Positions 96-21,291 of a stretch of 64,000 bases of DNA are shown piece by piece; positions within the stretch are counted from its first letter, which is position 1; every line of letters begins with the position of its first letter. Location of the stretch: NCBI GenBank assembly GCA_946480465.1, contig CAMLJY010000027.1, positions 13,385-77,384 on the forward strand, written 5' to 3'. Source of the stretch: an uncultured Burkholderiales bacterium. GTDB taxonomy: Bacteria; Pseudomonadota; Gammaproteobacteria; Burkholderiales; Burkholderiaceae. Under the pieces are notes generated by a model. That model was not told the origin of the DNA. It searched no databases and saw nothing but the letters and a program-made list of their open reading frames with translations. A program made the translations under genes and the position numbers.

Positions 96-124
96 TTGAC
101 ATGATATGTCGGCCGCCCTATTCT
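96..124 (+). promoter_or_regulatory. Sigma-70 promoter of the stress operon
   Basis: A perfect -35 TTGACA (96-101) is followed after exactly 17 bases by TATTCT (119-124), a 4 of 6 match to the -10 consensus. Transcription would begin near 131, about 37 bases before the first gene at 168. No other good promoter is visible before the end of the eighth gene. Bases 1-95 hold nothing recognisable apart from GC-rich repeats of GGC triplets. Confidence 0.6.
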
Positions 125-131
125 GCGCGCA

Positions 132-148
132 CCGGCAGCCGCTGCCGG
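132..148. promoter_or_regulatory. Inverted repeat at the transcription start, possible operator
   Basis: CCGGCAGC and GCTGCCGG form a perfect 8-base inverted repeat with one base between, starting just at the predicted +1 of the promoter at 96-124. It could be an operator for a dimeric repressor or a 5-prime hairpin in the leader. No known regulator site was recognised. Confidence 0.35.
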
Positions 149-167
149 CCAAGCACGAAGGAGCTGG

Positions 168-584
168 ATGAACGCCTTGCACGAGCAGTTGCGCGGGCTG
201 GAAGGGCATGTCGAAGCCGCGATGGGCGGTGCCGCCGTGCAGCTGCAGCCCATCCCCGGCGCGGTGCCGGTGGTGCAGGTCAGCATCGACGGGCGGCAGG
301 AGCTGCCGATCTTCCTGACCAGCGCCGAGACGCAGCTCTTGTGCCTGTGCTACTTGTGGTCCGACGCCGAGATCCGGCCCGACAAGCGAGCCGAACTGAT
401 GGAGACGCTGCTGGACCTGAACCCGTCGGTGCCGCTGTCGGCCTTCGGCCGCGTCGGCGACCGCTTCGTGCTTTCGGGCGCGCTGCGGCGCGACGCCGGT
501 GTCGAGGAAATAGCGCGTGAAGTGGTCGTCCTTAGCGACAACGCGCTCGATGCCCTGGACGCCCTGTCCGACTACCTGCTGTGA
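168..584 (+). CDS. DUF2170 / YjfI-like protein
   Basis: A 138-residue soluble protein without signal peptide or membrane segment, resembling the DUF2170 family (E. coli YjfI). That family is known mainly from its neighbourhood beside PspA-like proteins (YjfJ) and has no established biochemical role. GAAGGAG lies 4 bases before the ATG, a strong ribosome site, and the promoter at 96-124 is directly upstream, so this is the first gene of the operon. The middle (ELPIFLTSAETQLLCLCYLW, about residues 45-64) is the most family-like part, and the C-terminus is acidic. The next gene overlaps or follows within 12 bases, pointing to translational coupling with the PspA-like protein. Family assignment is from pattern memory, not a search. 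Confidence 0.75.
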   Translation: MNALHEQLRGLEGHVEAAMGGAAVQLQPIPGAVPVVQVSIDGRQELPIFLTSAETQLLCLCYLWSDAEIRPDKRAELMETLLDLNPSVPLSAFGRVGDRFVLSGALRRDAGVEEIAREVVVLSDNALDALDALSDYLL

Positions 585-595
585 AGGAGAGCCGC

Positions 596-1333
596 GTGTC
601 CGTGATCCGCAAGATGGTGACCCTGCTGCGCGGCAGCGCGCGCGAACTGGGCGAGAGCCTGGTCGATGCGCATGCGACGACGATCTACGAGCAGGAGATC
701 GCCGATGCCCGCGGCGCCATCCGCGAGGCCAAGGACGAACTCGCGGCCGTGCTGGCGAAGCAGGTGCGCGCGCAGCGCGAGGCCGGGCGCCTGCAGGCCG
801 AGGCCGGGCGCTACGAGGCGATGGCCGTGGAGGCGTTGGACAAGGCGCAGGACGCCCTGGCCGAGGAGGTGGCCGCGAAGGTGCTGGCGCTGGAGGCCGA
901 CCTGGCCGAGCAGCAGCGGGCGGAAGCCACCTTCGCCGCGCAGGTGCAGCGCCTGAAGCAGCTGATCCAGGCCGCCGAGGCACGCCTGCGCGAACACGAG
1001 CGCGAGGCCGAGATCGCCAGGACGACCGAAAGCGTCTACCGCGCGACGCAATCGATCAGCGACAACATGGCCAGCGGCGGCGCGCGCCTGGTCAGCGCCC
1101 GCGAATCGCTGGAACGCATCAAGCGCCGACACGAGGACCTGGCCGATCGATTGCAGGCTGCCGAGCAGGTCGAGCGTGAACTGGGCGGTGGCGCCCTGGA
1201 CCGCAAGCTGGCCGAGGCCGGCATCGGCCCGGAAGCCGAACGCCGGCGCGCCGTCATGGACCGCATCCGCGCGAAGCGGGCCCGGCAGCCGTGCCCGGCC
1301 ACGCCGGCGCCCGGCTCGCCGGACAGGCCGTGA
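596..1333 (+). CDS. PspA/IM30 family protein (YjfJ-like)
   Basis: A 245-residue, almost wholly alpha-helical, Ala/Glu/Arg-rich coiled-coil protein with the PspA/IM30 start (amphipathic SVIRKMVTLLRGSA). Proteins of this family, related to ESCRT-III, polymerise on the inner face of the cytoplasmic membrane and stabilise it under stress. The start taken is GTG at 596, because AAGGAGA lies at 585-590; an in-frame GTG at 581 overlaps the upstream stop but would put the ribosome site inside the gene. A proline-rich tail ends the protein. In E. coli the YjfI-type gene precedes yjfJ in the same way. There is no PspF-type activator or PspB/C nearby, so it belongs to the YjfJ branch and not the classic psp operon. 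Confidence 0.85.
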   Translation: MSVIRKMVTLLRGSARELGESLVDAHATTIYEQEIADARGAIREAKDELAAVLAKQVRAQREAGRLQAEAGRYEAMAVEALDKAQDALAEEVAAKVLALEADLAEQQRAEATFAAQVQRLKQLIQAAEARLREHEREAEIARTTESVYRATQSISDNMASGGARLVSARESLERIKRRHEDLADRLQAAEQVERELGGGALDRKLAEAGIGPEAERRRAVMDRIRAKRARQPCPATPAPGSPDRP

Positions 1334-1335
1334 GC

Positions 1336-1665
1336 ATGCGCAAGCCGGCGCGCTGGAAGGGTTCGGACGAGGCCTTGCGCGCGGTGCAGGTCGCCTTCGA
1401 CGTCGAGCAGGCCGTGCTGGAAGCCGTGCGCACCGCGGCCTTCCAGAACAACCTGTCCACCTCGGACCAGATCCGCCGCCTGCTGTCGCTGCCCACGGCC
1501 ACCCGTCCGGTGCGGCCGCGGCTGACCGTGTCCCTGAATGCCGACGACTATGCGATGCTGGCCGAGCGCTTCGGCCTGGATGCGGAGGACCGGCTGGCGA
1601 TCAAGGAACGCGTGGCGGCCGAGCTGATGCGGTTCGCGGCCGCGAAACCGCCGCCGAGAAAGTAA
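1336..1665 (+). CDS. Small protein of unknown function, possibly ribbon-helix-helix-like
   Basis: A 109-residue basic protein whose ATG lies two bases after the stop of the PspA-like gene. No family was recognised. Two segments look alike in pattern: residues about 20-53 (FDVEQAVLEAV...LSTSDQIRRLL) and about 62-95 (LTVSLNADDYAMLAERF...AIKERVAAEL). Each has a short beta-type stretch followed by two predicted helices, the outline of a ribbon-helix-helix unit. That resemblance is inference only. If right, it could be a DNA-binding autoregulator of the operon, perhaps through the inverted repeat at 132-148. It carries no signal peptide and no membrane segment. Confidence 0.6.
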   Translation: MRKPARWKGSDEALRAVQVAFDVEQAVLEAVRTAAFQNNLSTSDQIRRLLSLPTATRPVRPRLTVSLNADDYAMLAERFGLDAEDRLAIKERVAAELMRFAAAKPPPRK

Positions 1666-1734
1666 TTCACGAAAGAAGCGGAACACCGCGGGCGGGCGAA
1701 CATGCACCGGCCGCGATCGACGACAAGAGGGGAC

Positions 1735-2370
1735 ATGGGCAACTTCAACACCGCCGTCTTTTCCTACCCGACCGCGGTCTTCACCGCGCTGCTGGGCATC
1801 GTCATCGTCTACTGGGTGCTGGCGATGATCGGCCTGGTCGACTTCGAGCACTCGGGGCTGGACCTGGACATCGAGGCGCAGGCCGATGCCGACCCGGCCG
1901 AACTGGGCACGCTGGCCAGCTACGTCGTGGCCTTCGGGCTCAGCGGCGTGCCGTTCTCGGTCGCGGTGAGCCTGGTCGTGCTGTACGGCTGGGTCGGCAG
2001 CTGCCTGGCCGGCATGTGGCTGCAGCCGCTGGTGCCCGCGGGCGTGCTGGGCTGGCTGGCCGGCACCGCGGTGTTCGGTGCCGCATCGGCGCTGGCCATC
2101 GTGCTGTCGGCGCGCACGATCCGGCCGCTGCGCAAGCTCTTCGTCACCCATGCCGCCATCTCCAATGCCGCGCTGGTCGGCCAGCTGTGCCGGGTGCTGA
2201 CCGGCGAGGTCAACCAGCGCATCGGCCGCGCGGAAGTGGCGCAGCGCGGCGCCAGCATCAACATCCGCGTGTGGGCGAAGGAGCCCAACGCGCTCACCAA
2301 GGGTTCGCCCGCGCGCATCGTCGACTACGACGCGGAGCGCGCACGCTACCTGATCACCCCCGAGAACTGA
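1735..2370 (+). CDS. YqiJ-like OB-fold membrane protein
   Basis: A 211-residue membrane protein with three hydrophobic segments (about residues 9-31, 60-85 and 93-122) followed by a soluble C-terminal part of about 80 residues ending in SPARIVDYDAERARYLI, the pattern of the OB-fold tail of YqiJ/NfeD-type partners of flotillins. In E. coli yqiJ directly precedes the flotillin gene yqiK, as here. NfeD-like proteins are thought to act with flotillins in membrane microdomains. AGAGGGG stands before the ATG at 1735; an in-frame ATG at 1702 lacks a ribosome site. Confidence 0.8.
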   Translation: MGNFNTAVFSYPTAVFTALLGIVIVYWVLAMIGLVDFEHSGLDLDIEAQADADPAELGTLASYVVAFGLSGVPFSVAVSLVVLYGWVGSCLAGMWLQPLVPAGVLGWLAGTAVFGAASALAIVLSARTIRPLRKLFVTHAAISNAALVGQLCRVLTGEVNQRIGRAEVAQRGASINIRVWAKEPNALTKGSPARIVDYDAERARYLITPEN

Positions 2371-2414
2371 TCTTCTCCCTCACCACCACTGCTTCGAAGT
2401 AACGAGGAAAATCG

Positions 2415-4571
2415 ATGGAACCGCTCATCATTGCCGCCATCGTGCTGGCCGTCCTGATCCTCGGCCTCTTCGCGATGTTCGCGAAGTTCTACCGGAAGAT
2501 CGAGCAGGGCTATGCGCTGATCGTCAACACGCTGCGCGCCGAGCCCGAGGTCACCTTCACCGGCCGCATGGTCTACCCGATCATCCACAAGGCCGAGCTG
2601 ATGGACATCTCGGTCAAGACCATCGAGATCGACCGCTCAGGACGTGAAGGCCTGATCTGCCGCGACAACATCCGCGCCGACATCAAGGTGCGCTTCTACG
2701 TGCGCGTCAACAAGACCGCGGAAGACGTGCTGAAGGTGGCGCAGGCGGTGGGCTGCGAGCGCGCGTCCAACCACGAGACGCTGGAGGAGCTGTTCTCCGC
2801 CAAGTTCTCCGAGGCGCTGAAGACGGTGGGCAAGAGCCTCGACTTCGTCGACCTGTACGGCGCGCGCGACCGCTTCCGCGACGAGATCATTGCGCAGATC
2901 GGCGACGACCTCTCGGGCTATGTGCTGGAAGACGCGGCCATCGACTACCTGGAGCAGACGCCGCTGGCGAAGCTGGACAACACCAACATCCTCGATGCGC
3001 AGGGCATCAAGAAGATCACCGAGCTGACGGCGGTGGAGCACGTGCGCACCAACGAGCTGCAGCGCAACGAGGAAATGCAGATCAAGAAGAAGAACGTCGA
3101 GACGCAGGAGGCGCTGCTGGAGCTGGAGCGCCAGGCCGCCGACGCCCAGGCCCGCCAGGCGCGCGAGGTGGCCAGCGTGCGCGCGCGCGAGGAAGCCGAG
3201 ACGCTGAAGATCCAGGCCGAGGAAAAGGCGAAGAGCGAACTGGCGCGGCTGCAGTCCGAGCAGGTCATCGCGGTGCAGAACGAGAACGTGCAGCGCGAGA
3301 AGGAAGTGGCCGAGAACAACCGCAAGCGCGCCGTCGCGATCGAGGAAGAAAAGGTCACGCGGGCGCGTGAGCTGGAGATCGTCGACCGCGAGAAGGAAGT
3401 GACGCTGCAGAAGATCGACAAGGACCGCGCGGTGGAGGTGCAGAAGAAGGCGATCGCCGACGTGATCCGCGAGCGCATCGTCGTCGAGCGCACGGTGGCC
3501 GAGCAGGAGGAGGCCATCAAGGAACTGCGCACCACGGCCGAGGCCGACCGCACCAAGAAGTCCACCATCATCATGGCCGAGGGCCAGGCCGAGGAAAAGC
3601 TGCTGCTGGAGGTGAAGGCGGCCGAGGCGCAGGAACGCCGCGCCAAGCACCTGGCCACCGAAGAGATCACGCTGGCCGAGGCGCGCCTGAAGGTGGCCGA
3701 GAAGGCCGCCGAGGCGAAGAAGCGCGAGGCCGAAGGCGTGGAGGCGCTGAGTGCCGCCGCCGGCCTGGCCGAGGCCAAGGTGCTGATGGTCAAGGCCGAT
3801 GCGCTGGAGAAGCAGGGCATGGCCGACGTGCACGTGCGCTCCGCCGGTGCCGAAGCGACGCTGAAGACCGGCCAGGCCGAGGCGCAGGTGATCGAGGCGC
3901 GCGCCTCGGCCGAGGCCGCCGGCCTGCGCGCCAAGCTGACCGCCGAGGCCGAGGGCAAGGAGAAGCTGGGCCAGGCCGACGTGAGCGTCAAGCTGCTGGA
4001 CGCCGACGCGACGGTGAAGGCCGGCCAGGCCGAGGCCGCCACCATCGAGGCGCGCTTCCTGGCCGAGGCCAAGGGCCTGCGGGACAAGTTCGACGCGATG
4101 AAGGCGATGAGCGCCGACACCCGCGACCACGAGGAATTCCGCATGCGGCTGGAGAAGTCGCATGTCGAGACCATGAAGGGCATCGAGGCGCAGACCACCA
4201 TCGCCAAGGACCAGGCCGGCGTGCTGGGCACGGCGATGGCCAACGCCAAGATCGACATCGTCGGCGGCGAGGGCGACTACTTCCAGCGCTTCGTCAGCGC
4301 GCTGGCGCTGGGCAAGGGCATCGATGGCGTGATCGCCAAGAGCCAGACGCTGCAGACGGGCCTGAAGGACCACCTGAACGGCGAGCGCGACATGGTGGGC
4401 GACCTGAAGGACCTGGTGGGCGCGCTGGGCTCCTCGTCCGCCGAACTGCAGAACCTGACGGTGGCCGGTCTCTTCGCCAAGGTGATGCGTGACGGCACCG
4501 ATCCGCAGAAGGCCGCGCTGCAGGCGGCGCTGCAATCGCTGCAGACGACGCAGCCGCGGCTGTCGCAATGA
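2415..4571 (+). CDS. Flotillin family protein (YqiK-like)
   Basis: A 718-residue SPFH/band-7 protein. One N-terminal membrane segment (residues about 4-26) is followed by an SPFH domain to about residue 190, a very long Ala/Glu coiled coil with repeated GQAEA-type units (about 200-560), and a C-terminal tail of about 150 residues. Flotillins form large oligomeric scaffolds in the cytoplasmic membrane and organise membrane microdomains. The gene follows the YqiJ-like partner after 44 bases with the ribosome site GAGGAAA. Its stop overlaps the start of the zinc-ribbon gene (ATGA). Length and order agree with E. coli YqiK, though this member is longer. Confidence 0.88.
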   Translation: MEPLIIAAIVLAVLILGLFAMFAKFYRKIEQGYALIVNTLRAEPEVTFTGRMVYPIIHKAELMDISVKTIEIDRSGREGLICRDNIRADIKVRFYVRVNKTAEDVLKVAQAVGCERASNHETLEELFSAKFSEALKTVGKSLDFVDLYGARDRFRDEIIAQIGDDLSGYVLEDAAIDYLEQTPLAKLDNTNILDAQGIKKITELTAVEHVRTNELQRNEEMQIKKKNVETQEALLELERQAADAQARQAREVASVRAREEAETLKIQAEEKAKSELARLQSEQVIAVQNENVQREKEVAENNRKRAVAIEEEKVTRARELEIVDREKEVTLQKIDKDRAVEVQKKAIADVIRERIVVERTVAEQEEAIKELRTTAEADRTKKSTIIMAEGQAEEKLLLEVKAAEAQERRAKHLATEEITLAEARLKVAEKAAEAKKREAEGVEALSAAAGLAEAKVLMVKADALEKQGMADVHVRSAGAEATLKTGQAEAQVIEARASAEAAGLRAKLTAEAEGKEKLGQADVSVKLLDADATVKAGQAEAATIEARFLAEAKGLRDKFDAMKAMSADTRDHEEFRMRLEKSHVETMKGIEAQTTIAKDQAGVLGTAMANAKIDIVGGEGDYFQRFVSALALGKGIDGVIAKSQTLQTGLKDHLNGERDMVGDLKDLVGALGSSSAELQNLTVAGLFAKVMRDGTDPQKAALQAALQSLQTTQPRLSQ

Positions 4572-5140
4572 CGCCTGAGGTGAGCGACATGCGGACTTCG
4601 CTGCGATGTGCCTGTGGTTCCGAAGGCGGCTGGCTCCTGGTGGAAGTGGCGGACGGCCTGCCGGCCTGCACCTGCCAGGCCTGCCATGGCCACCTGCTGG
4701 CCCTGGACGACTACCGGCGCTGGCATGCCCGCACCGGTGCCGCGGGCGTCGCCGACGTGGCGACGATCGACCTGCCGCCGAGCGATGCCACCGACAACGC
4801 GCGCCAGTGCCCGCACTGCGCACGCTTCATGCAGCGGCTGCGCGTCGGCGCGCCGGTGGATTTCCGCATCGACCGCTGCAGCCCCTGCCAGCAGGTGTGG
4901 TTCGACGACGGCGAGTGGACCGCGCTGGCCCAGGCCGGCCTGGCGGCCCGCCTGCTCGACGTGCTGTCCGACGGCTGGCAGCGCCAGGTGCAGGCCGACG
5001 ACCTGCGCGCGCGGCGCGAGGCCGACCTGTGCGAACGCCACGGCGCCGAGCGGTTGCACGAGCTGGCGCGCATGCGCGACTGGCTGAACGCGCAGCCCGA
5101 GCGTGAAGAGCTGCTGGCGCTGCTGCGCGCCGGCTGGTGA
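4568..5140 (+). CDS. Zinc-ribbon protein (TFIIB-type zinc finger)
   Basis: A 190-residue soluble protein with three Cys pairs. CAC at residues 14-16 and CTCQAC near 37-42 make a first possible zinc site. CPHC (about 79-82) with CSPC (about 102-105) followed by QVWFDDGEW match the zf-TFIIB family, where the second pair is followed by a WxDxGE motif. The helical C-terminal third has no recognised family. The ATG overlaps the stop of the flotillin gene, and its own stop overlaps the GTG of the ATPase gene, so it is translationally coupled on both sides. Function is unknown; a structural or adaptor role for the ATPase is inference. Confidence 0.7.
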   Translation: MTPEVSDMRTSLRCACGSEGGWLLVEVADGLPACTCQACHGHLLALDDYRRWHARTGAAGVADVATIDLPPSDATDNARQCPHCARFMQRLRVGAPVDFRIDRCSPCQQVWFDDGEWTALAQAGLAARLLDVLSDGWQRQVQADDLRARREADLCERHGAERLHELARMRDWLNAQPEREELLALLRAGW

Positions 5141-8100
5141 ACGGCATGAGCGAAGCGCTGGACGCCTCCCAGGCCGGCATGCCCGCCGCCGCCGGCACGC
5201 CCGCCGAGCGCCCGGTCGATCACACCGAGCAAATGGTGGCCGCCAGCGGCAGCTACGAGCTGCTGAAGTCGCGCCTGGCCACGCTGGGCGGCACGCTGCA
5301 GGCCAAGGCCCGGGGGCTGAACGAAGCCCGCGTCACCGCCTTCGGCCGCAGCGAACAGGCGCTGCTGAAGCGGCTGCGCGCGCGCACCGAGAACAACTGT
5401 GTCGCGCGCGACATCGTGCGCATCCACGACGGCTTGCTGCTGTTCGGCTACAACGTCTTCATCGGCCTGCGCAAGGAGACCGCGGTCTCCGACGTCTTTG
5501 CGCTCTATCGGCTGGATGAGGGCAGCGACGAACTGCAGCCCGTGCCTTTGGCCGGCAGCTTCCTGGAAGACCCGCGTTTCGCGTCCGACTTCCGCGAGCT
5601 GTACGCCTACTACAAGCAGGCCACGCTGATACAGCTGCGCGTCACCAGCGACAAGCTGCTGGCCGCGTTCCAGATCGGACAGCAGCTGACCGACGTGCGC
5701 GTCTTCCGCTGGGAGATCCAGCGCGACGGCCAGCTGCGCTACGTCGACAACCGCGGCGAACGCGACATCGCGTTGCCGGCGAGCCACGATTTCGAGTGGA
5801 CCGTGGCCACCCGCGAGGACCACGTCAGCGGCAAGCACCCGCACGTGAACGTGCTGGACACGGTGTTCGTCGAGACCCTGGGTGGCGACCTCACCGTCAA
5901 GGTGGAGAACAACACCGAGACCGGCCTCGGCATCTACAGCGAGCCGGTGGAGGATGCGCACCAGTCGCTGGCCGATGCGGACGTGGCCTACGCCCGCGTC
6001 GGGCAGCTGATCCTGCTGCGCATCAGGCCCTACCGCGAGACCACGCAGCGCTTCCTGGTCTACAACCCGCGCACGCAGCAGGTGCAGCGCATCGACGCCA
6101 TCGGCAGCGCCTGCGTGCAGCTGCCGGAGGACCACGGGATCATCTTTCCCGGCGGCTACTACCTGCAATCGGGCGAGCACAAGCGCTTCGACCTGCCCGG
6201 CGAGGTGGTGAGCGCGCTGCGCTTCAAGCGCATGATCCGCTCGCCCAACGGCGAGGACGTGCTCTATGTGTTCTACGAGCCGGGCAGCGGCCACTACGCG
6301 CTCTTCACCTACAACCTGATCGAGAAGACGCTGGCGACACCCATCCTCGCCAACGGCTACGCGCGCTTCGCTGATGGCCGCATGCTGGTGTTCCAGGCCG
6401 ACCGCGGCGAACCCACGCGCACGCACCCGATGCAGCTGTGGCGCACGCCCTTCGCCCATGAGGAACACGCGCACGCGCAACCGGCGGCGGAGGGATTCTT
6501 CGGCCGCATCGGCAACGCGGAATTGGTGCGTGGCATTTCCGACCTGGTCGGCATCGCCCGCGCGCTGGGCGAACAGGCGCCCACGCGCAGCGCGTACGAA
6601 GACCTGATCCGCCAGGCCGGCCGCGTCGGCGACGCCTTCTTCTGGCTGGGCGAGCCCGAGGCGCAGGGCATCGCCGATGACCTGCGCGCGGTGGCCGATG
6701 GTGCCCGCGCGACGCTGGCAGAGTTCGAGAAGGTCGATGCGATCCGTCGCGAGACGGCGAATGCCATCGAGCAGGCCACGCGCGCCCAGCGCGCGTTGCT
6801 GACCGACATCGCCAGCACGCTGTGGCGGCAGCCGGAAGACTTCGTGGGTGCGCTGGATCGGCTGCGCGAGCAGCGCGGTGCGCTGCACGGGTTGAAGGAC
6901 CTGCGTTATGCAGACGTCTCCGCCATCGCCGCGATGGACGTGGTGCTGGCGGCCGAGCAGCAGCGCGTAGGCGAACGGGCGCTGCAGTTCCTGGCTGCCG
7001 ACAATGCCTTCGACGGCCAGCAGCGCGGGCTGCAGCAGCGCGCGGCGGAGCTGGCGCAGGCCAGCACCTCCCCCGCGCTGGCCGAACTGCTGCGCCTGCT
7101 GGATGCCCAGGCCGCGGGCCTGGACCTCTTGACCGCGCAGCTGGGCAGCCTGCCCGGCGGCGATGCGGTGGTGCGCACCCGCATCCTCGACCGCATTTCC
7201 GCGCTGTACGCGGACATCAACAAGCTGCGCGCGGAAGCGCGGCAGCGCCGCAGGTCGCTGGGCGCGAGTGAAGCGCGGGCGGAATTCGGCGCGCAGTTCA
7301 AGCTCTTCGGCCAGGCGGTCGAGAACGCGCTGGAGTTCGCCGACACGCCCGAGAAGTGCGACGAGGCGCTGACCCGCCTCCTGGCGCAGCTGGAAGAGCT
7401 GGAAGGCCGCTTCGCGGAGCACGACGAGTTCATCAGTGACATCGCCGAGCAGCGCGAGACGGTGTACGAAGCGCTGGCCGCGCGCCGCCAGGGCCTGGTG
7501 GAAGCGCAGCAGCGCCGCGCGCAGGCGGTGGCCGAAGCCGCGGGCCGCATCCTGGACGGCATTCCGCGCCGCGTGGCCGCGCTGCGCGAGCCGGCGCAGG
7601 TGCACAGCTATTTCGCGGCCGACCCCATGCTGGGCAAGCTGCGCCAGCTGGTGGACGATTTGCGTTCGCTCGGCGCCGCGGTGGCGGCCGATGACATCGC
7701 GACCCGCCTGAAGGCCGCGCACGACGCAGCGCTGCGCGCGGTGCGCGACCAGCGCGAGCTGGTGGCCGACGACGGCCAGACGCTGAAGTTCGGCCCGCAC
7801 GCCTTCACGATCAACAGGCAGGCGCTGGACCTGGCCCTGGTGCCGTCCGGCGATGGGCTGGTCTGGCAGCTGACCGGCACCGACTACCAGGTGCCGGCGC
7901 ACGATGCCGAGCTGGAGGCGTTGAAGCCGTTCTGGCAGCAGGCGCTGCCGTCGGAGAGCGAACACCTGTCACGCGCCGAGTACCTGGCCGGCACGCTGCT
8001 GCGCGACCTGCTGGCCGGGCGCGGCGCCATCGACGCCGCGCTGCTGCAGGCCACGCCCGAGGGCACTGACCCCTTGCGCGATGCCGTGCGGGCCGCTGCG

Positions 8101-10350
8101 GCGGCGCGTTATCAGGAGGGCTACCAGAAAGGTGTGCACGACGAGGACGCGACGAAGCTGCTGAGGGCGCTGTGGGCCCTGCAGCAGCCGGCCGGCCTGC
8201 TGGTGCATGGGCCGGCGGCGCGCACCTTGGCGCTGGCCTGGTGGCAGCAGGCGCTGGACGACCCGGGCCGCGCCGCATTGCAGCGGCGCGCCCGCCAGGC
8301 GCTGCAGCTGCAGGCCGTGTTCGGTGCCGGCGCGGCCCTGCAGGCGCTGCAGAACGAGCTGGCCACGCAGCTGTCGGCTTTCGCCACCGAACGCGACGGT
8401 TCATCCGACCCGACGATCAGCGCCGACGCGGCCGCGTACTTGCCGCGTCAGCTGGCCGAGCCGCGCGGCGCCGAGGCGCCGGTCATCAGCGGTCCGGCCG
8501 AGGACCTGGCCGCGGCCCTGCAGCGCACCCTGGAACGCAGCGGCCAGTGGACCGCGTGGCTGCACGACCTGGACGCCGCCACGCCCGCCGAACGCTGGCG
8601 CACCGCGCGCGACTGGGTGGCGGCCTGCGCCGGCACGCAGGGCGATGCCGCGCTGCCGTGGATCGACGAAGCGGCCGGCGCACTGGCCTTGCGCGGTCCG
8701 CGCCAGCGCCACAACACCGAGCTGTCGGCCACGGTCGAAGGCCTGCTCGGCGACCACCCGCGCAACGCGGGCGGCCGCATGGTGCTGCAGCTCAACGACT
8801 TCTGGCGCCGCTTCGACCACCACGTCGGCCACGTGCAGCCCGGCTTCGAAGCCTTCCGCAAGCGACGCCACGCGCTGCTCGCCGCCGAGAAGCAGCGCCT
8901 GAAGCTGGCGCAGTTCCAGGCCAGGCCGCTGTCCACCTTCGTGCGCAACCGGCTGATCGACGAGGTCTACCTGCCGCTGGTGGGCGACAACCTGTCCAAG
9001 CAGCTGGGTGCGGCAGGCGCCGCCGCCCGCAGCGACCGCATGGGCCTGTTGCTGCTGATCTCGCCGCCGGGCTACGGCAAGACCACGCTGATGGAGTACG
9101 TGGCCGATCGCCTCGGCATGGTCTTCGTGCGCATCAACTGCCCGGTGCTGGGCCACCACGTCACCTCGGTCGACCCGGCCGCGGCGCCCAACAGCGCCGC
9201 GCGCCAGGAGCTGGAGAAGCTGAACCTGGGCCTGGCCATGGGCAGCAACGTGATGCTGTACCTGGACGACATCCAGCACACCGCGCCCGAGTTCCTGCAG
9301 AAGTTCATCGCGCTGGCCGACGGCACGCGGCGCATCGAAGGCGTGTGGGCCGGCGAGCCCCGCACCTACGACATGCGCGGCAAGCGCTTCGCGATCGTGA
9401 TGGCCGGCAACCCGTACACCGAGTCGGGCGAGGTCTTCAAGATCCCCGACATGCTGGCCAACCGCGCCGACATCCACAATCTGGGCGACGTGCTGTCCGG
9501 CCGCGAGGCGCTGTTCGCGCTGTCCTACCTGGAGAACTGCCTCACCTCCAACCCGGCGCTGTTGCCCTTGTCGTCACGCGACCCCAGGGACCTGCACCGC
9601 CTGGTCAAGATCGCCGAAGGCGGCGAGGTGGCCAGCAGCGAGTTCTCGCATCCCTACAGCGCGGCCGAACTGGAAGAGCTGGTCGCGCTGCTGAAGCGCC
9701 TGGGCCGCGCGCGCGATCTGCTGCTGAAGGTCAACCTGGCCTACATCGCCTCCGCGGCGCAGCAGGACGCCTACCGCGACGAGCCGCCCTTCAAGCTGCA
9801 GGGCAGCTACCGCAACATGGTGAAGCTGGCCGGCCGCATAACGCCGCTGATGAGCGACAGCGAGCTGGACGCACTGCTGCGCGACCACTACCGCGGCGAG
9901 GCGCAGACGCTGACCACCGGCGCCGAGGAGAACCTCTTGAAGCTGGCGCAGCTGCTGGGCAGCCCGACGGAGGACGAGGCGGCCCGCTGGCGCGCGATCA
10001 CCGAGGCCTTCCAGCGCCGCCGCCAATTGGGCGGCGAAGAGGTGGATGGCAGCACGCGCATCGCCTCCACGCTGCTGGAGGTGGCGCGCGCGGTGGGCGA
10101 GTTGAAGCCACCGCCGGTGCCGCCCGAACCGCCCGCCGCGCCGCCTGTCGAGCCCGGGCAGGAGCCCGAATCGCTGCGCCTGGCGCAAGCCGTGCTGGAG
10201 ATCGCGAAGACCTACCGCCAGCTCATCATGCCGCTGGTGGCCGCGACGGAAGAGCGCCTGAAGCTCGACCACAGTGCGTCGGGGCAGATGGAGCGGCTGG
10301 CCCGGCAGCTGGACGCGCGGCTGGCCGGTGCCAAGCGGCCGGCGGAATGA
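5137..10350 (+). CDS. Giant AAA+ ATPase with DUF3686 domain (annotated in relatives as DNA repair ATPase)
   Basis: A 1737-residue protein. Residues about 30-480 form a beta-rich region resembling DUF3686; about 500-860 are mostly helical coiled coil; after about 1290 comes a single AAA+ module of MoxR type. Walker A is SPPGYGKTT (1309-1317), Walker B LYLDD (1374-1378), sensor-1 Asn is in AGNP (N1425), and IPDMLANRAD (1436-1445) carries a likely arginine finger. The C-terminal about 250 residues are helical with a Pro-rich linker. The name DNA repair ATPase used for relatives is not backed by experiment that I know of. The GTG at 5137 overlaps the previous stop; an ATG at 5146 is an alternative. 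The downstream gene overlaps by ATGA. Confidence 0.82.
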   Translation: MNGMSEALDASQAGMPAAAGTPAERPVDHTEQMVAASGSYELLKSRLATLGGTLQAKARGLNEARVTAFGRSEQALLKRLRARTENNCVARDIVRIHDGLLLFGYNVFIGLRKETAVSDVFALYRLDEGSDELQPVPLAGSFLEDPRFASDFRELYAYYKQATLIQLRVTSDKLLAAFQIGQQLTDVRVFRWEIQRDGQLRYVDNRGERDIALPASHDFEWTVATREDHVSGKHPHVNVLDTVFVETLGGDLTVKVENNTETGLGIYSEPVEDAHQSLADADVAYARVGQLILLRIRPYRETTQRFLVYNPRTQQVQRIDAIGSACVQLPEDHGIIFPGGYYLQSGEHKRFDLPGEVVSALRFKRMIRSPNGEDVLYVFYEPGSGHYALFTYNLIEKTLATPILANGYARFADGRMLVFQADRGEPTRTHPMQLWRTPFAHEEHAHAQPAAEGFFGRIGNAELVRGISDLVGIARALGEQAPTRSAYEDLIRQAGRVGDAFFWLGEPEAQGIADDLRAVADGARATLAEFEKVDAIRRETANAIEQATRAQRALLTDIASTLWRQPEDFVGALDRLREQRGALHGLKDLRYADVSAIAAMDVVLAAEQQRVGERALQFLAADNAFDGQQRGLQQRAAELAQASTSPALAELLRLLDAQAAGLDLLTAQLGSLPGGDAVVRTRILDRISALYADINKLRAEARQRRRSLGASEARAEFGAQFKLFGQAVENALEFADTPEKCDEALTRLLAQLEELEGRFAEHDEFISDIAEQRETVYEALAARRQGLVEAQQRRAQAVAEAAGRILDGIPRRVAALREPAQVHSYFAADPMLGKLRQLVDDLRSLGAAVAADDIATRLKAAHDAALRAVRDQRELVADDGQTLKFGPHAFTINRQALDLALVPSGDGLVWQLTGTDYQVPAHDAELEALKPFWQQALPSESEHLSRAEYLAGTLLRDLLAGRGAIDAALLQATPEGTDPLRDAVRAAAAARYQEGYQKGVHDEDATKLLRALWALQQPAGLLVHGPAARTLALAWWQQALDDPGRAALQRRARQALQLQAVFGAGAALQALQNELATQLSAFATERDGSSDPTISADAAAYLPRQLAEPRGAEAPVISGPAEDLAAALQRTLERSGQWTAWLHDLDAATPAERWRTARDWVAACAGTQGDAALPWIDEAAGALALRGPRQRHNTELSATVEGLLGDHPRNAGGRMVLQLNDFWRRFDHHVGHVQPGFEAFRKRRHALLAAEKQRLKLAQFQARPLSTFVRNRLIDEVYLPLVGDNLSKQLGAAGAAARSDRMGLLLLISPPGYGKTTLMEYVADRLGMVFVRINCPVLGHHVTSVDPAAAPNSAARQELEKLNLGLAMGSNVMLYLDDIQHTAPEFLQKFIALADGTRRIEGVWAGEPRTYDMRGKRFAIVMAGNPYTESGEVFKIPDMLANRADIHNLGDVLSGREALFALSYLENCLTSNPALLPLSSRDPRDLHRLVKIAEGGEVASSEFSHPYSAAELEELVALLKRLGRARDLLLKVNLAYIASAAQQDAYRDEPPFKLQGSYRNMVKLAGRITPLMSDSELDALLRDHYRGEAQTLTTGAEENLLKLAQLLGSPTEDEAARWRAITEAFQRRRQLGGEEVDGSTRIASTLLEVARAVGELKPPPVPPEPPAAPPVEPGQEPESLRLAQAVLEIAKTYRQLIMPLVAATEERLKLDHSASGQMERLARQLDARLAGAKRPAE

Positions 10351-11072
10351 AGGTCGGCCGAATGACGAACGACGGTCCCACCACCGCCGAGCTGCTTGAC
10401 CAGCTGCAGCAAACGCTGGTCGATGAGGTGCTGAGCGACGACGAGAAGCGCAGCCTGGCGCAGGCCCTGCGCGAGGCGGAGCCGCCGGAAGACGCGCTGC
10501 GCCAGCTGCGCAACCGCGCCTTCACGCTGGTGCGCGAGCGCGCCGCCGAATCCACCGCCGTGCCGCTGCCGCTGTTGCGCTGGCTGGAAGGCGTGGTGCG
10601 CTGCATCGACAACGCCCGCGCGCCGGCGGAAGCCGTGCAGGCCATGGCCGCGTTCAGCCCCGGCGAGCAATGCCTGTCGCTGATCCGCGGCCACCTGCGC
10701 GGCGCGCGCCACCGCGCTGACCTGTGCGTCTTCACGCTGTCGGACGACCGCATCGCCGCCGAGGTGCTGGCCATGCACCGCCGCGGCGTGAAAGTGCGCC
10801 TGATCACCGATGGCGACAAGGCCTTCGACGCCGGCAGCGACGTGCATGCCTTGCGCCAAGCCGGCGTGCCGGTGGCTTTGGACGTCAGCGCCGCGCACAT
10901 GCACCACAAGTTCGCCCTCATCGACGGCGCCTGGCTGCTCAACGGCAGCTACAACTGGACCCGCAGCGCCTGCGAGCACAACGAGGAGAACGTGGTGCTG
11001 TGCAACCACCCGGCGCTGCTGGCGCAGTTCAGCGCGGTGTTTGAACGGCTCTGGGCGGCGCTGTCCACGTAG
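10347..11072 (+). CDS. Single-HKD phospholipase D-like protein
   Basis: A 241-residue protein. The first about 100 residues are helical and unrecognised; the rest is a PLD-fold domain. Its one HKD motif, HHKFALID, places the catalytic His at 186, Lys at 188 and Asp at 193, followed by GSYNWT as in Nuc and other phosphodiesterases. Proteins with one motif work as dimers and may cut DNA, RNA or phospholipid; the substrate here is not evident. There is no signal peptide. The ATG overlaps the stop of the ATPase gene. An in-frame ATG lies at 10362. It is the last gene of the operon; the next gene runs the other way. Confidence 0.82.
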   Translation: MKVGRMTNDGPTTAELLDQLQQTLVDEVLSDDEKRSLAQALREAEPPEDALRQLRNRAFTLVRERAAESTAVPLPLLRWLEGVVRCIDNARAPAEAVQAMAAFSPGEQCLSLIRGHLRGARHRADLCVFTLSDDRIAAEVLAMHRRGVKVRLITDGDKAFDAGSDVHALRQAGVPVALDVSAAHMHHKFALIDGAWLLNGSYNWTRSACEHNEENVVLCNHPALLAQFSAVFERLWAALST

Positions 11073-12740: not shown

Positions 12741-13388
12741 ATGCCCCGGCCCTCCCAGCAACTCGACCAGGCCCTGCTGCGCAGCGGGCGCGCGCTGTAT
12801 CCGGCGCTGGGCTGCAGCGGCTTGTCGCAGCGCAAGCTGGCGGAGCACGCGGGCGTCAGCCCGGGCATGTTCCATTACCACTTCGCCAGCAAGGACGACT
12901 TCCTGCGCACGCTGCTGCAGCAGCTGTACGAGGAGATGTACGGCCCGCTGGCCGAGAGCGCCGGCGGCGAAGGCCAGCCGCTGGAACGGCTGCGGCGCGC
13001 GCTGTTCGGGCTCGCCCGCTTCGTGCGCGAACAACGGCCGCTGCTGATGCGCCTGGCGCTCGACGCCGGCGCCGGCCACGCCGTGGTGCAGCAGTTCATG
13101 CGCGACAACGCGCCGCGCCACCTGGGCGTGCTGCTGCGGCTGTTGAAGGAGGCTGAGCGCGCCGGCCAGCTGCCCGCGCTGCGCCACCCGCTGCAGCGCC
13201 TGGCGGTGTTGATGGGCACCGTGGTGGCGCCGCTGCTGATGGCGCCGGCGGTGGCGGCGCTGGGCATTGCCACGCCGGGCCCGTCGATCGAAACCCAGGT
13301 GTGCAGCGATGCGGCCATTGGCGCCCGCATCGCCCTGGCCTTGGCCGCGTTGCGCGGCGAGGCGCCCGATCCGCAGGTGTGGCGATGA
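12741..13388 (+). CDS. TetR/AcrR family transcriptional regulator
   Basis: A 215-residue repressor-type protein with an N-terminal helix-turn-helix (LSQRKLAEHAGVSPGMFHYHF, about residues 28-48) and a helical ligand domain. It leads an operon with a HlyD-type adaptor, an ABC ATPase and a permease, the same design as the E. coli cecR(ybiH)-ybhGFSR locus, where the TetR protein controls the exporter. Its stop overlaps the ATG of the adaptor gene. The inducing compound is unknown. Confidence 0.85.
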   Translation: MPRPSQQLDQALLRSGRALYPALGCSGLSQRKLAEHAGVSPGMFHYHFASKDDFLRTLLQQLYEEMYGPLAESAGGEGQPLERLRRALFGLARFVREQRPLLMRLALDAGAGHAVVQQFMRDNAPRHLGVLLRLLKEAERAGQLPALRHPLQRLAVLMGTVVAPLLMAPAVAALGIATPGPSIETQVCSDAAIGARIALALAALRGEAPDPQVWR

Positions 13389-14347
13389 CCCCGTGGCCGC
13401 GTCTTTTGTGCATTGGCGCCATGGCCCTGCTGCTGGCGGGCTGCGATCGTGCAGCACCGGCCGGCTGGGCGGGTTATGCCGAAGGCGACTATGTCTACGT
13501 CGCCGCGCCCCTGGCTGGCACGCTCGCCGCGCTGCCGGTGGCGGCGGGCGCCTCGGTGGCGCAGGGCGCGCTGCTCTTCACGCTGGATGCCGAGGCGGAG
13601 CGGCTGGCGCGCGCCGAGGCCCAGGCGCGCCGCAACGCGGCCGAAGCCCAGGCCGCCAACACCGACAGCGGCCGCCGTGCCGACGAGATCGCGGTGACCG
13701 AGGCGCAGCTGGCCCGCGCCCGCGCCCAGGCCGCGCTGGCGAAGAACGAACTGGCGCGGGTGCAGGCCCTGGTGGCGCAGCATTTCGTCTCGCCGGCGCA
13801 GCTGGACGACGCGCGCACCGCCGAGGCACAGGCGCGCGCGCAGGTGGCCGAGCTGGACGCCGCGCTGCGCGTGGCGCGCCTGCCGGCCCGAACGCAGGAA
13901 CGCGCGGCCGCCCACGCCAGCGCCGGCGCCGCAGCGGAAGCCGTGAAGCAGGCCGACTGGCGCCTGGCGCAGAAGACCCAGCGCGCACCGGCGGCCGCGC
14001 AGGTGGCCGACACCTTCTTCCGTCCCGGCGAGTGGGTGCCGGCCGGGCAGCCTGTGGTGTCGCTGCTGCCGCTGGGTGCGGTGAAGGCGCGCTTCTACGT
14101 CGCTGAAAGCGAGGCCGGCGCGCTGGCGCCCGGCCAGGCGGTGACGATCCGCTGCGACGGCTGCGGCGCGCCGATCGCCGCGCGCATCGCCCGCATCGCG
14201 ACGCAGGCCGAGTACACGCCGCCGGTGATCTATTCGAACTCGCAGCGCGCCAACCTGGTGTTCATGGTCGAGGCCAGGCCCGACACACCGGCCGACGCCG
14301 CGCGCCTGCGGCCCGGCCAGCCCATCGACGTTCGGAAGGTCGAATGA
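13385..14347 (+). CDS. HlyD-family efflux adaptor lipoprotein (YbhG-like)
   Basis: A 320-residue periplasmic adaptor. The signal ends in the lipobox LAGC with the lipidated Cys at residue 20. A split lipoyl/barrel-sandwich region (about residues 33-65 and 195-235) flanks a long Ala-rich alpha-helical hairpin (about 70-190). Such proteins link an inner-membrane pump to an outer-membrane channel. The gene overlaps the TetR stop by ATGA and is followed by ABC transporter genes. No TolC-type channel gene is in the cluster, so a shared channel elsewhere is implied. Confidence 0.85.
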   Translation: MTPWPRLLCIGAMALLLAGCDRAAPAGWAGYAEGDYVYVAAPLAGTLAALPVAAGASVAQGALLFTLDAEAERLARAEAQARRNAAEAQAANTDSGRRADEIAVTEAQLARARAQAALAKNELARVQALVAQHFVSPAQLDDARTAEAQARAQVAELDAALRVARLPARTQERAAAHASAGAAAEAVKQADWRLAQKTQRAPAAAQVADTFFRPGEWVPAGQPVVSLLPLGAVKARFYVAESEAGALAPGQAVTIRCDGCGAPIAARIARIATQAEYTPPVIYSNSQRANLVFMVEARPDTPADAARLRPGQPIDVRKVE

Positions 14348-14414
14348 GATCGCGGCGCGCGCCCGGATCGCCGGCGCTCGAGCGTGCGCCGGCTTCTCCG
14401 CATCGCCCGGAGGA

Positions 14415-15167
14415 ATGGGCGTGCTAGCGATCGATGTACGCGGCCTCACGAAACGCTTCGGCGGCCGCACCGTCGTCGACCACGTGGACCTGCAGCTCGA
14501 GCGTGGCCGCATCTGCGGCTTCCTGGGGCCGAACGGCAGCGGCAAGACGACGACGATCCGCATGATCTGCGGCCTGCTGAAGGCCGACGAAGGCAGCGGC
14601 ACCTGCCTGGGCCTGGACATCGCCGCCGGCGGCGCCGAGATCAAGCGCCAGGTCGGCTACATGACGCAGAAGTTCGGTCTCTACGAGGACCTGTCGATCC
14701 GCGAGAACCTGGACTTCATTGCGCGCCTGTTCCAGCTGCCGGGACGGCGCGCGCAAGTGGATGCTGCGCTCGACCGCCTGGGCCTCACGTCGCGCCAGAA
14801 GCAGCTGGCCGGCGAGCTGTCCGGCGGTTGGAAGCAACGCCTGGCGCTGGCCGCCTGCCTGCTGCACGAGCCGCAATTGCTGCTGCTGGACGAGCCCACC
14901 GCCGGCGTCGACCCCAAGGCCCGGCGCGAGTTCTGGGACGAGATTCACCAGCTGGCCGGGCAGGGCATCACCGTGCTGGTCTCCACGCACTACATGGACG
15001 AGGCCGAGCGCTGCCACGAGCTGTGCTACATCGCCTACGGCCACGTGCTGGCGCGTGGCACGGCCGCGCAGATCGTCGAACAGGCCGGCGCGCGCGACCT
15101 GGAAGACGCCTTCGTGCGCCTCGTCGACCGCGCGCAGGACAACTTCGCCGCGGCTCCCTCGCGATGA
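14415..15167 (+). CDS. ABC transporter ATP-binding protein
   Basis: A 250-residue nucleotide-binding subunit with Walker [10 protein letters not shown] (39-47), signature LSGGWKQR (about 136-143), Walker [13 protein letters not shown] and the H-loop STHYMDEA. The order adaptor, ATPase, ABC-2 permease matches Ybh-type drug exporters; E. coli YbhF carries two ATPase domains, this one has one. CCGGAGG precedes the ATG closely. The stop overlaps the permease ATG. Confidence 0.88.
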
Positions 15168-16306
15168 CCATGAACGGCGGCCTGTCCCTCGCCCGCACCG
15201 CCGCGGTCTTCGTCAAGGAGCTGCAGCAGATGCTGCGCGACCGCCTGACCTTCGCGATGGCGGTGGGCGTGCCCATCCTGCAGCTGGTGCTGTTCGGCTA
15301 CGCGATCAACACCGATCCCAAGGGTTTGCCCACGGTGCTGGTGGCCGAGGACGGCGGACCGCTGGCGCGCAGCGTCTCGGCGGCGCTGCAGAACTCCGGC
15401 TACTTCCACATCGTCACGCACACGGGGCGCGAGGCCGAGGGCGAGGCGCTGCTCGAACGCGGCGACGCGCAGTTCATGGTGGTGATTCCGCCCGATTTCA
15501 CGCGTCGCCTCGTGCGCGGCGAACGGGCGCCGATGCTGATCGCCGTCGATGCCACCGACCCCTCCGCCTCGGGCAACGCCATCGCGGCGCTGCAGCCGCT
15601 GCTCACGCAGGCGCTGCGCGCCGACGCCACCGGCCCGCTGGCCCACCTGGCGACCAAGGAAGCGCCGATCGACGTGCGCATCCACCGCCGCTACAACCCC
15701 GAGGGCCTGTCGCGCTACAACATCGTGCCGGGCCTGATCGGCACCATCCTGACCATGACGATGGTGATGCTCACCAGCCTCGCGATGACGCGCGAGCGCG
15801 AGCGCGGCACGATGGAAAACCTGCTCGCCACGCCGGTGCGCCCGCTGGAGGTGATGCTGGGCAAGATCCTGCCCTACGTGCTGGTGGGCTACATCCAGCT
15901 GGGCGTGATCATGCTGGCCGCGTGGCTCTTGTTCGAGGTGCCGATGGTCGGCAGCCTGGCGCTGCTGATGGCGATGATCGGCGTCTTCATGCTCGCCAAC
16001 CTGGGCGTGGGCTTCACCTTCTCCACGCTCGCGAAGAACCAGCTGCAGGCGCTGCAGATGACCTTCTTCTTCTTCCTGCCGTCGATGCTGCTGTCGGGCT
16101 TCATGTTCCCCTTCCGCGGCATGCCGCACTGGGCGCAGGCGCTGGGCGAGGTGCTGCCGCTCACGCACTTCCTGCGCATCGTGCGCGGCATCCTGCTCAA
16201 GGGCAATGGCCTGGCCGAGCTGCTGCCCGAGCTGTGGCCGATGCTCGCTTTCCTGCTGGCCGCCGGCGCGCTGGCGATGGCACGCTATCGTCGGACGCTC
16301 GATTGA
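15164..16306 (+). CDS. ABC-2 type permease (YbhS/YbhR-like)
   Basis: A 380-residue inner-membrane permease with an N-terminal membrane helix (about residues 29-47), a large periplasmic loop and five C-terminal membrane helices, the ABC-2 design. [15 protein letters not shown] is the conserved cytoplasmic coupling segment of this family. Only one permease gene is present, so it would act as a homodimer with the upstream ATPase, whereas E. coli uses YbhS plus YbhR. Last gene of the tetR-hlyD-ABC operon. Confidence 0.87.
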
Positions 16307-16337
16307 CGAGCGTGACCACCCCCGAGGAGGAGAGCCG

Positions 16338-17990
16338 ATGCCCGCCTGGCTGCTGGCGCTGGACCGCCATTTCCCCATCCGCTACCTGACGCTGCTGGCC
16401 GCGGCCATCACCGCGCTGCTGGGCGGCTTCGTGTGGGTCGGCTTCGGCCACCTCGCCTGGGCCGCGCTGCTGGGCGCGGCCGGCGTCGCCGTCGGCATCC
16501 ACGACCTGCGGCAATCGCGGCATGCGGTGCTGCGCAACTACCCGCTCATCGGCCACCTGCGCTTTCTGCTGGAATGGATCCGGCCCGAGATCCGCCAGTA
16601 CTTCATCGAAAGCGAGCGCGAGGCGATTCCGTTCTCGCGCCAGCAGCGCTCGCTGGTCTACCAGCGCAGCAAGGGCGAATCGGACAAGCGGCCCTTCGGC
16701 ACCCAGCTGGACGTGCATGAACCGGGTTATGAGTGGATCAACCACTCGCTGCAGCCCACCGCCTTGCCGTCGCATGACTTCCGGGTCGAGGTCGGTGGCG
16801 GCGAGGGGAGCCGCTGCACGCAGCCTTACCTCGCCAGCGTGTTCAACATCTCGGCGATGAGCTTCGGCTCGCTGTCGGCGAACGCCATCCTGGCGCTGAA
16901 TGCCGGCGCCAAGCTGGGCGGCTTCGCGCACGACACCGGCGAAGGCTCCATCAGTGCCTACCACCGCGTGCACGGCGGCCACCTGATCTGGGAGATCGGC
17001 TCCGGCTACTTCGGCTGCCGCAACGAGGACGGCAGCTTCAACGAAGAGCGCTTCGAAGCGGCCGCGCGCGACGAGCAGGTCAAGATGGTCGAGCTGAAGC
17101 TGAGCCAGGGCGCCAAGCCCGGTCACGGCGGCGTGCTGCCGGGGCCGAAGGTGACGGTGGAGATCGCGCAGGCGCGCGGCGTGCTGCCGGGCATCGACTG
17201 CATCTCGCCGGCGTCGCACAGCGCCTTCGAGACGCCGGTGCAGATGCTGAAGTTCCTGGACCGGCTGCGCGTGCTGTCCGGCGGCAAGCCGGTGGGTTTC
17301 AAGTTCTGCATCGGCCATCCCTGGGAGTGGTTCGCCATCGCCAAGGCCATGCGCGAGACCGGGCTGCTGCCGGACTTCATCGTCGTCGACGGCGCCGAAG
17401 GCGGCACCGGCGCCGCGCCGCTGGAATTCACCGACCACGTCGGCGCCCCGCTGCAGGAAGGCCTGCGCCTGGTGCACAACACGCTGGTGGGCCTGAACCT
17501 GCGCCAGCGGGTGAAGATCGGCTGCGCCGGCAAGATCGTCAGCGCCTTCGACATCGCCCGCGCGATGGCGCTGGGGGCCGACTGGTGCAATTCGGCGCGT
17601 GGCTTCATGTTCGCGCTGGGCTGCATCCAGGCCCAGAGCTGCCACACCGGCCATTGCCCGACGGGCGTCACCACCCAGGACCCGCTGCGGCAGAAGGCGC
17701 TGTTCGTGCCCACCAAGGCCGAACGGGTGTTCCGCTTCCACGAGAACACGCTGGAGGCGCTGAAGGAACTGGTGCAGGCGGCTGGCCTGTCGCACCCCAA
17801 CCAGATCACGCCGGCCCACATCGTGCGGCGCACCAGCGACCACCAGGTGCGCCTGCTGGCCACACTGCTGCCGACGCTGCGGCCGGGCGAGCTGATCGCG
17901 GCCGAGCGCGGCGACCTGCCCTGGCCGCACCAGGTGTTCGAGCTGTACTGGGGCCTGGCCTCGCCGCACAGCTTCAGGCCGCAGAGCTGA
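16338..17990 (+). CDS. FMN-binding glutamate synthase family protein
   Basis: A 550-residue protein with two N-terminal membrane segments (about residues 16-35 and 38-55) followed by a GltB-type (beta/alpha)8 FMN domain (about 130-520). Landmarks are [11 protein letters not shown], the run [27 protein letters not shown], and a Cys cluster with spacing C-x5-C-x4-C ([12 protein letters not shown]) as in the [3Fe-4S] site of glutamate synthase. It lacks the glutaminase domain, so it is not a full glutamate synthase; stand-alone members have no settled role. A strong GAGGAGGAGA ribosome site precedes the ATG. Confidence 0.82.
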
Positions 17991-18782: not shown

Positions 18783-18849
18783 CATGCGCGGGGGGCCCGC
18801 AGGGGCCACGGGAACGAGGACCGGCGGGCTGCCCGGCCGGCCGAGCGGC

Positions 18850-19464: not shown

Positions 19465-19585
19465 GGGGGGCCGGAAGGGGGTTCCGGCGCGAGGCGGCCG
19501 GGTCGAATTCATTCTAGCGAGGCGACCCTCGGCGACGGTGACCCGCGCCGCCGCCGCAGCCGCTTGTGGTGGCTGCCCCACGGCA

Positions 19586-19628
19586 CCGACGAACGGTCGA
19601 ATTCCGGCCGACGAACGGTCGATTTCGG
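19586..19628. promoter_or_regulatory. Tandem direct repeat with AlgR-consensus cores upstream of the minor pilin operon
   Basis: Two head-to-tail copies of a 21-22-base unit lie at 19586-19607 and 19608-19628. Each contains GACGAACGG (19588-19596 and 19610-19618), whose complement CCGTTCGTC is the published AlgR binding consensus. AlgR directly activates the minor pilin operon in Pseudomonas aeruginosa. The 22-base period puts both sites on about the same helix face, 48-78 bases before the pilE start at 19666. Confidence 0.5.
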
Positions 19629-19665
19629 ATTCAAGCGGCTCGGCCGTCCGGTCGAAATCACCGAT

Positions 19666-21280: not shown

Positions 21281-21291
21281 AGGAAACCAAG

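Follow-up and report, generated by a model that had tools for sequence, protein, structure and literature searches.

What is the operon near the start of this stretch of DNA for, and what controls it? The stretch, 64 000 nucleotides of contig CAMLJY010000027.1 from an uncultured Burkholderiales bacterium (called the window throughout), carries at 168-11072, on the + strand, eight genes coding for a DUF2170 protein, a PspA/YjfJ protein, a small protein (gene 3), YqiJ, a flotillin, a zinc-ribbon protein, a very large AAA+ ATPase and a PLD-fold protein. We consider it probable that this is a version of the known PspA-flotillin-AAA+ membrane-stress operon which carries its own switch, a ribbon-helix-helix (RHH) protein acting at the palindrome GACATNNNATGTC.

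Association of gene 3 with a promoter palindrome

A sigma70-type promoter (TTGACA-17-TATTCT; 10 of 12 matches to the consensus) is found at 96..124 on the + strand. It was the sole match of this type on both strands of the first 11.6 kb, where shuffled sequences lead one to expect 0.3. The palindrome GACATNNNATGTC overlaps its -35 box and takes the form GACATGATATGTC, a 13-bp proposed operator at 98..110 (no strand assigned) which is the sole copy in the 64-kb window. Gene 3 (1336..1665, + strand), left unidentified in the original prediction, was placed here in a family of small tandem RHH-like proteins and is proposed to be an autoregulator; Foldseek returned no match for it under E 0.001.

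In a scan of genome contigs, 450 encoding stretches were found, and the best 80 of these were analysed (the homologues listed being the best 120 of 6328, 2273 and 459). The palindrome was present at 31 of the 33 loci with the RHH gene versus 1 of the 47 other loci. Among loci with DUF2170, which include 29 of the 47 lacking RHH, the corresponding figures were 31/32 and 0/29. Six loci without RHH (L005, L026, L028, L064, L066 and L079) start less than about 530 bases from their first gene, their upstream DNA being short or missing. Altogether, 44 copies of the palindrome lay in 27.3 kb of upstream DNA versus 1 in 1.80 Mb elsewhere. The RHH family was detected in 23 of 398 genomes.

A second sample comprised 19 strong and 2 weak RHH loci, all previously unseen. 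The exact site was located upstream of DUF2170 in 18 of the 19 strong loci (the other, L166, runs into a contig end) and in neither of the 2 weak loci, both of which are without PspA and DUF2170. There were 38 exact copies in the 319 kb of this sample: 31 at DUF2170 and 7 third copies about 4 kb away. The third copies are at L152 2323, L153 2479, L154 14326, L155 3032, L156 14411, L157 14024 and L159 2877; the one in L152 precedes a gene cluster with DUF350 and spermine synthase. Two sites also lie by the RHH operon of G158 (L097).

When 1024 arms were scanned with 13 gaps, GACAT with a gap of 3 ranked first in both RHH sets (31/32 and 18/18 loci with DUF2170), and a different arm led in the same scan of the 29 non-RHH loci. 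The second set consisted here of 18 regions, with L166, L169 and L170 excluded for having no DUF2170; the gene start of L164 was placed by hand, and a later check agrees with it. A TTGACA -35 box is contained within the site in 47 of the 49 site-bearing regions, and 37 of the 49 have a -10 box of at least 4/6 (counted together with a -35 box of at least 5/6). Palindromes also occur in pairs, 15 bp apart from start to start in L018, L019, L020, L027, L036, L037, L041, L097, L163, L164 and L168, 29 bp apart in L031 and L033-L035, and 31 to 39 bp apart in L076, L126, L150-L157, L159 and L160.

Gain or loss of the gene was compared with that of the site on a quick ATPase tree with 74 usable rows (seven rows without upstream DNA were excluded and L063 was scored as RHH-less). 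The two changed together in 5 of 5 independent pairs, and 4/5 was obtained in a few of 200 random pairings; the P value of 0.0625 is the minimum attainable from five pairs. On this tree, the nearest row to the ATPase of the window is from Aquabacterium (86% identical), which makes a relative of Aquabacterium (Sphaerotilaceae) the probable source of the window. Among the window's nearest rows, two Aquabacterium loci lack both the RHH gene and the site, and a third has both.

Sites and RHH genes in whole genomes

A pattern scan was carried out on 11 genomes, of which eight possess the RHH operon. Copies of the palindrome are found exclusively at the operon promoter in four of the eight (G001, G932, G933 and G936), and the other four have one or two extra copies. 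RHH-less G004 and G002 carry two copies and one copy, respectively, none of them in the operon loci, and about one chance copy per genome is therefore taken to be normal. A backward control pattern was found in 0 to 2 places per genome. No RHH match at E 0.001 was obtained in seven genomes (G004, G002, G732, G940, G941, G942 and G003).

Two arrangements place the gene and the flotillin operon apart. In Aliikangiella, locus L076 reads PspA-rhomboid-YqiJ-flotillin-ATPase; it bears two sites but lacks an RHH gene, which this genome carries at a separate place, in a cluster of DUF2170 and PspA next to a gene for spermidine synthase. Two sites are found there as well. In G011, a site precedes the flotillin operon (L095) and the RHH gene is on another contig, in the cluster DUF350-spermine synthase-DUF2170-PspA-DUF4178-like-RHH with three sites (the DUF4178 match falls slightly short of its cut-off). 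A zinc-ribbon gene diverges from the flotillin operon of G011, with a palindrome in between (L095 10140-10797), and the ATPase frame of this genome has one in-frame TGA.

Might the palindrome be read by another regulator and merely travel with the RHH gene? Several points weigh against our interpretation and in favour of this one: the tie consists of co-occurrence, with binding as a prediction; the left half of the palindrome coincides with the -35 box; and G144 and G199 have an RHH gene elsewhere together with a flotillin operon that has no site within 2 mismatches. On the other side are the joint change of gene and site in all five pairs, the 18 of 19 loci of the second sample and the trans cases G939 and G011, which make such a passenger palindrome, in our estimation, improbable.

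We find it quite probable instead that one tandem-RHH regulator, acting through the operator GACATNNNATGTC, governs a regulon for membrane stress across the Pseudomonadota; it would differ from the PspF, LiaRS and ClgR systems, join two otherwise unconnected kinds of PspA operon, the polyamine/DUF350 kind and the flotillin/MoxR/PLD kind, and act in trans where they are apart. Beyond the PspF system, little is known about how YjfJ-type PspA operons are controlled. Here the operator is visible in a genome on plain inspection and has a likely regulator, which makes the regulon testable; if it exists as proposed, the functions of the flotillin, the MoxR ATPase and the PLD protein would be tied to the same signal as the PspA-polyamine operon.

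Literature searches on RHH, PspA, operator, flotillin and YjfI did not find the RHH-operator pair in print, the one paper returned being that of Ravi et al. (2024; PMC11237479), and a search for the site sequence gave unrelated papers only, as judged by title and abstract.

Gene content and conservation of the operon

The prediction of a single-promoter operon of eight genes was borne out: all are on the + strand, and four of the seven junctions are 4-bp stop-start overlaps (in gene order -4, +2, +69, +44, -4, -4 and -4 bp, the third being +36 with the alternative start of yqiJ). Family searches likewise agree with the predicted combination of a PspA/flotillin/YqiJ membrane module with an AAA+ ATPase and a PLD-fold enzyme. 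The first gene (168..584, +) codes for a DUF2170 protein of the YjfI/BacA family, which is CesT/Tir-like (Pfam PF09938, 6.2e-25; solved relative 8q8o, E 0.001), and the second (581..1333, +) for the ESCRT-III-like membrane protein PspA/YjfJ (PF04012, PspA_IM30, 9.3e-30; its family profile reaches E. coli YjfJ at 5.5e-47). After gene 3 come the membrane protein YqiJ (1735..2370, alternative start 1702, +), which has hydrophobic segments and whose family profile reaches E. coli YqiJ at 2e-5, and a YqiK-type flotillin (2415..4571, +) with an N-terminal transmembrane segment (hydrophobic residues 1-27; 27% identity to YqiK, 9e-34; family profile 1.3e-50). Both were assigned through the profiles of their families, as a direct Pfam scan matched neither to a relevant model; among four relatives scanned, L032 alone reached Flot and YqiJ_N, with scores under the Pfam threshold for both. 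The remaining genes encode a zinc-ribbon protein (4568..5140, +; PF13453, Zn_ribbon_TFIIB, 9.1e-7, two stretches), the 1737-residue ATPase (5137..10350, +; DUF3686 at 1.3e-195, DUF7902 and a MoxR-type AAA+ domain, AAA by Pfam) and a single-HKD, MitoPLD-like PLD protein (10347..11072, alternative start 10362, +; Pfam PLDc_2, 9.7e-31).

Conservation across relatives shows that the gene set is not due to chance. Among the 80 loci, the ATPase was found in 80, flotillin in 76, YqiJ in 74, PspA in 62, DUF2170 in 61, PLD in 42, gene 3 in 33 and the zinc ribbon in 28; these counts are lower bounds, as contig ends cut some loci. YqiJ, flotillin and ATPase form a core that is present at 74 loci, with constant order and a common strand in 74/74. 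Of the six loci without it, L026, L064, L066 and L079 lie at the end of a contig; for L029 and L071 upstream DNA is available, yet a relaxed search gave no flotillin or YqiJ match above chance (best 0.12). The original prediction was to count as refuted if the set proved to be limited to close relatives, with the gene order scattered in other genomes. The first part holds in that all eight genes occur together at 11 of 80 loci, all betaproteobacterial; the second does not, given the order of the core.

In genome samples, DUF3686 was detected in 8/398 genomes (phylum of G001), 9/200 (family of G001), 3/198 (phylum of G003, Breznakiella) and 20/149 (genus of G004, Pseudomonas), the centre genomes being included, and in 0/14 controls. 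YqiJ, flotillin and ATPase adjoin in nine of nine newly fetched ATPase genomes; with G001 (L002) and G003 (L032) added, the core is present in 8/8 Pseudomonadota genomes and 3/3 genomes of the second phylum that carry the ATPase. The ATPase is rare, patchy and almost tied to flotillin.

Comparison with described operons

Ravi et al. (2024; PMC11237479) describe a CesT/Tir (DUF2170)-PspA neighbourhood with band-7/flotillin, YqiJ and an AAA+ ATPase with a beta-propeller and a coiled coil, with PLD in some Proteobacteria. The window matches it in the DUF2170-PspA dyad, flotillin, YqiJ and the AAA+ protein, the propeller being represented by Pfam DUF3686 only. It differs in that the section of that paper on the CesT/Tir-PspA-flotillin group has no mention of an RHH gene or of a zinc ribbon as a protein of its own; nor does the main text contain the words rhomboid, M50, operator or palindrom.

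In Pseudomonas aeruginosa, bacA-F were reported to be one six-gene operon by RT-PCR (Wallart et al. 2024; PMC10948618). Without BacA, the five partner genes rise 6.1- to 13.5-fold, and a sigma54 site was proposed for the operon (PMC10948618). The likeness to the window covers DUF2170 (BacA), PspA (BacB), an SPFH protein (PA14_16180) and two further cotranscribed genes (PMC10948618), as well as the short NfeD gene PA14_16160 (PMC13086221). From the gene order in the Pseudomonas loci of our set, whose six-gene form reads DUF2170-PspA-YqiJ-flotillin-ATPase-PLD, bacE and bacF would be the ATPase and PLD genes. These loci lack the RHH gene, the zinc ribbon and the palindrome that the operon of the window has. 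The six-gene bac set (DUF2170-PspA-YqiJ-flotillin-ATPase-PLD) occurs at 34 of the 80 loci, and the window keeps that order with two extra genes. The flotillin has been named PaFlo3, with a short NfeD gene in its operon, and its deletion cost about 20% of biofilm (PMC13086221). PA3732 is listed among targets with several CsrA/RsmA-family sites (PMC4066749). A link to interbacterial antagonism was rejected, as the co-immunoprecipitation fold of PA3729 was 1.30 and 1.28 (PMC8926400) and so gives no evidence of one.

The original prediction knew of no experimental account of the whole set. Literature searches found none for the eight-gene form, and no paper that names DUF3686; the statement has nevertheless to be narrowed, as the six-gene form fits the bac operon (PMC10948618) and the neighbourhood appears in PMC11237479. 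The operon is accordingly a variant of an already described PspA-flotillin-AAA+ membrane-stress type, in which the RHH-operator pair is the new part. The spermidine-synthase PspA operon (the second group of Ravi et al.) shares with it the DUF2170-PspA dyad, a DUF4178-like protein, an RHH gene and the same palindrome upstream, and differs in that no flotillin, MoxR ATPase or PLD was found in the stretches examined. With the classical PspF-PspABC system the operon has a PspA family protein in common, but its promoter is of the sigma70 type and bears the palindrome. No PspB, PspC or PspF was found among the eight genes by Pfam, the DNA covered starting at base 1 of the window. A sigma54 consensus scan of the window gave 258 matches versus 301 expected, with no convincing site upstream of the operon, and a simple sigma54 scan of relatives with DUF2170 gave no convincing upstream site and nothing that separated the groups.

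Proposed working of the products

The membrane role assigned to these products rests on what is established about PspA and flotillins. We infer that the tandem-RHH protein binds GACATNNNATGTC over the -35 box and so keeps the operon low, and that membrane damage, by some signal, would relieve this repression. PspA and DUF2170 would then act at the inner membrane beside a flotillin-YqiJ scaffold, where the cytosolic MoxR-type ATPase might remodel or disassemble complexes by means of its long N-terminal arms; finally, the PLD enzyme, or an intramembrane protease in some relatives, may edit a membrane lipid or substrate, the presumed outcome being membrane repair.

PspA is ESCRT-III-like, and it shares an operon with the ATPase. 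This raises the question of whether the pair is a bacterial analogue of ESCRT-III/Vps4 in which the ATPase takes PspA polymers apart in the manner of Vps4, ESCRT-like analogues having been proposed by Ravi et al. (PMC11237479). We regard this as unlikely. The key residues of the ATPase are conserved in 80 to 81 of 81 rows, and its modelled AAA+ core comes closest to the MoxR structures CbbQ and NorQ; the best rows among the structures listed were MoxR. Vps4 was not in that listing, an absence that carries no weight against the analogy. On the strength of this model, the protein is MoxR-like. It differs from CbbQ and NorQ in its length of 1737 residues with DUF3686 and DUF7902 arms, and Pfam gave no VWA family for any of the eight proteins.

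When the PLD domain was compared with solved structures, mitochondrial cardiolipin hydrolase was nearest (1.6e-27); bacterial Nuc (5.3e-9) and NucT (3.1e-4) also matched. Of 43 rows, 42 have the catalytic H, K and D and one has a gap. With MitoPLD/Zucchini the protein shares a single HKD domain; it differs in having no transmembrane anchor (no N-terminal membrane anchor and no 19-residue segment at a Kyte-Doolittle value of 1.6 or over was found) and in a stretch of about 100 N-terminal residues outside the match. Part of this stretch (residues 1-100, window 10347-10650) aligns weakly with DrmC of DISARM.

The output could alternatively be cleavage of nucleic acid, the PLD protein being a nuclease rather than a lipid hydrolase. 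The mitochondrial cardiolipin hydrolase family has reported nuclease members, the Nuc and NucT structures also match, NCBIfam NucT gives 2.2e-9 (below its cut-off) and there is no transmembrane segment; the far better score of cardiolipin hydrolase speaks for a lipid substrate, and we put the nuclease at somewhat below an even chance. For PLD and its ALTERNATIVES, neighbouring open reading frames (ORFs) were scanned singly with Pfam at 16 of the 38 PLD-less loci. A rhomboid directly follows the ATPase in L056, L065 and L072, and in L077 it does so with one ORF in between. In L055 and L060 the ATPase is followed by an M50B-like peptidase, and the rhomboid of L076 sits inside the operon. The scan of the remaining nine loci found a CHAP protein, unrelated families or no match at all; the CHAP-domain protein follows the ATPase in Frischella (L073 15127-15720). 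The closeness of PLD to mitochondrial cardiolipin hydrolase, together with intramembrane proteases in some PLD-less operons, suggests that the output is lipid or membrane-protein editing.

Defence

The original prediction had also offered an anti-phage response. In a dedicated system of this kind, membrane sensors would trigger the ATPase and a PLD nuclease to destroy phage nucleic acid or the host. In phage-infected PAO1, PA3728-PA3732 are reported among 17 genes that were up in all infected samples at both time points (PMC12041424). This induction is as compatible with membrane stress as with defence. The distribution of the ATPase is patchy (8/398, 9/200, 20/149 and 3/198 genomes), and PLD is weakly similar to DISARM DrmC and to DpdK. 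PADLOC, however, gave only weak matches for the eight proteins (best 4.7e-7, for PLD). The neighbour scan covered 127 of the 294 flanking ORFs, drawn from 36 of the 80 loci, with ORFs of <100 or >1000 amino acids dropped; the ORF calling was crude and includes spurious frames. A few matched defence models well (MkoC 3.2e-44, PDC-S37 6.5e-36, also MkoA), but each of the 21 PADLOC families found at E 1e-10 had one member only, with no background set for comparison, and the 25 Pfam families listed, of 122, are mostly metabolic and regulatory. Among viral contigs, a single ATPase query matched one stretch by a pattern, and no relative was confirmed. The anti-phage proposal is thus not supported by the eight proteins, nor clearly by their neighbours, and we hold it to be improbable.

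Downstream of the operon, at 12741-17987 and 18784-22632, the window has genes for a TetR regulator and for HlyD-type and ABC exporters, then glutamate-synthase-like and type IV pilin-like genes.

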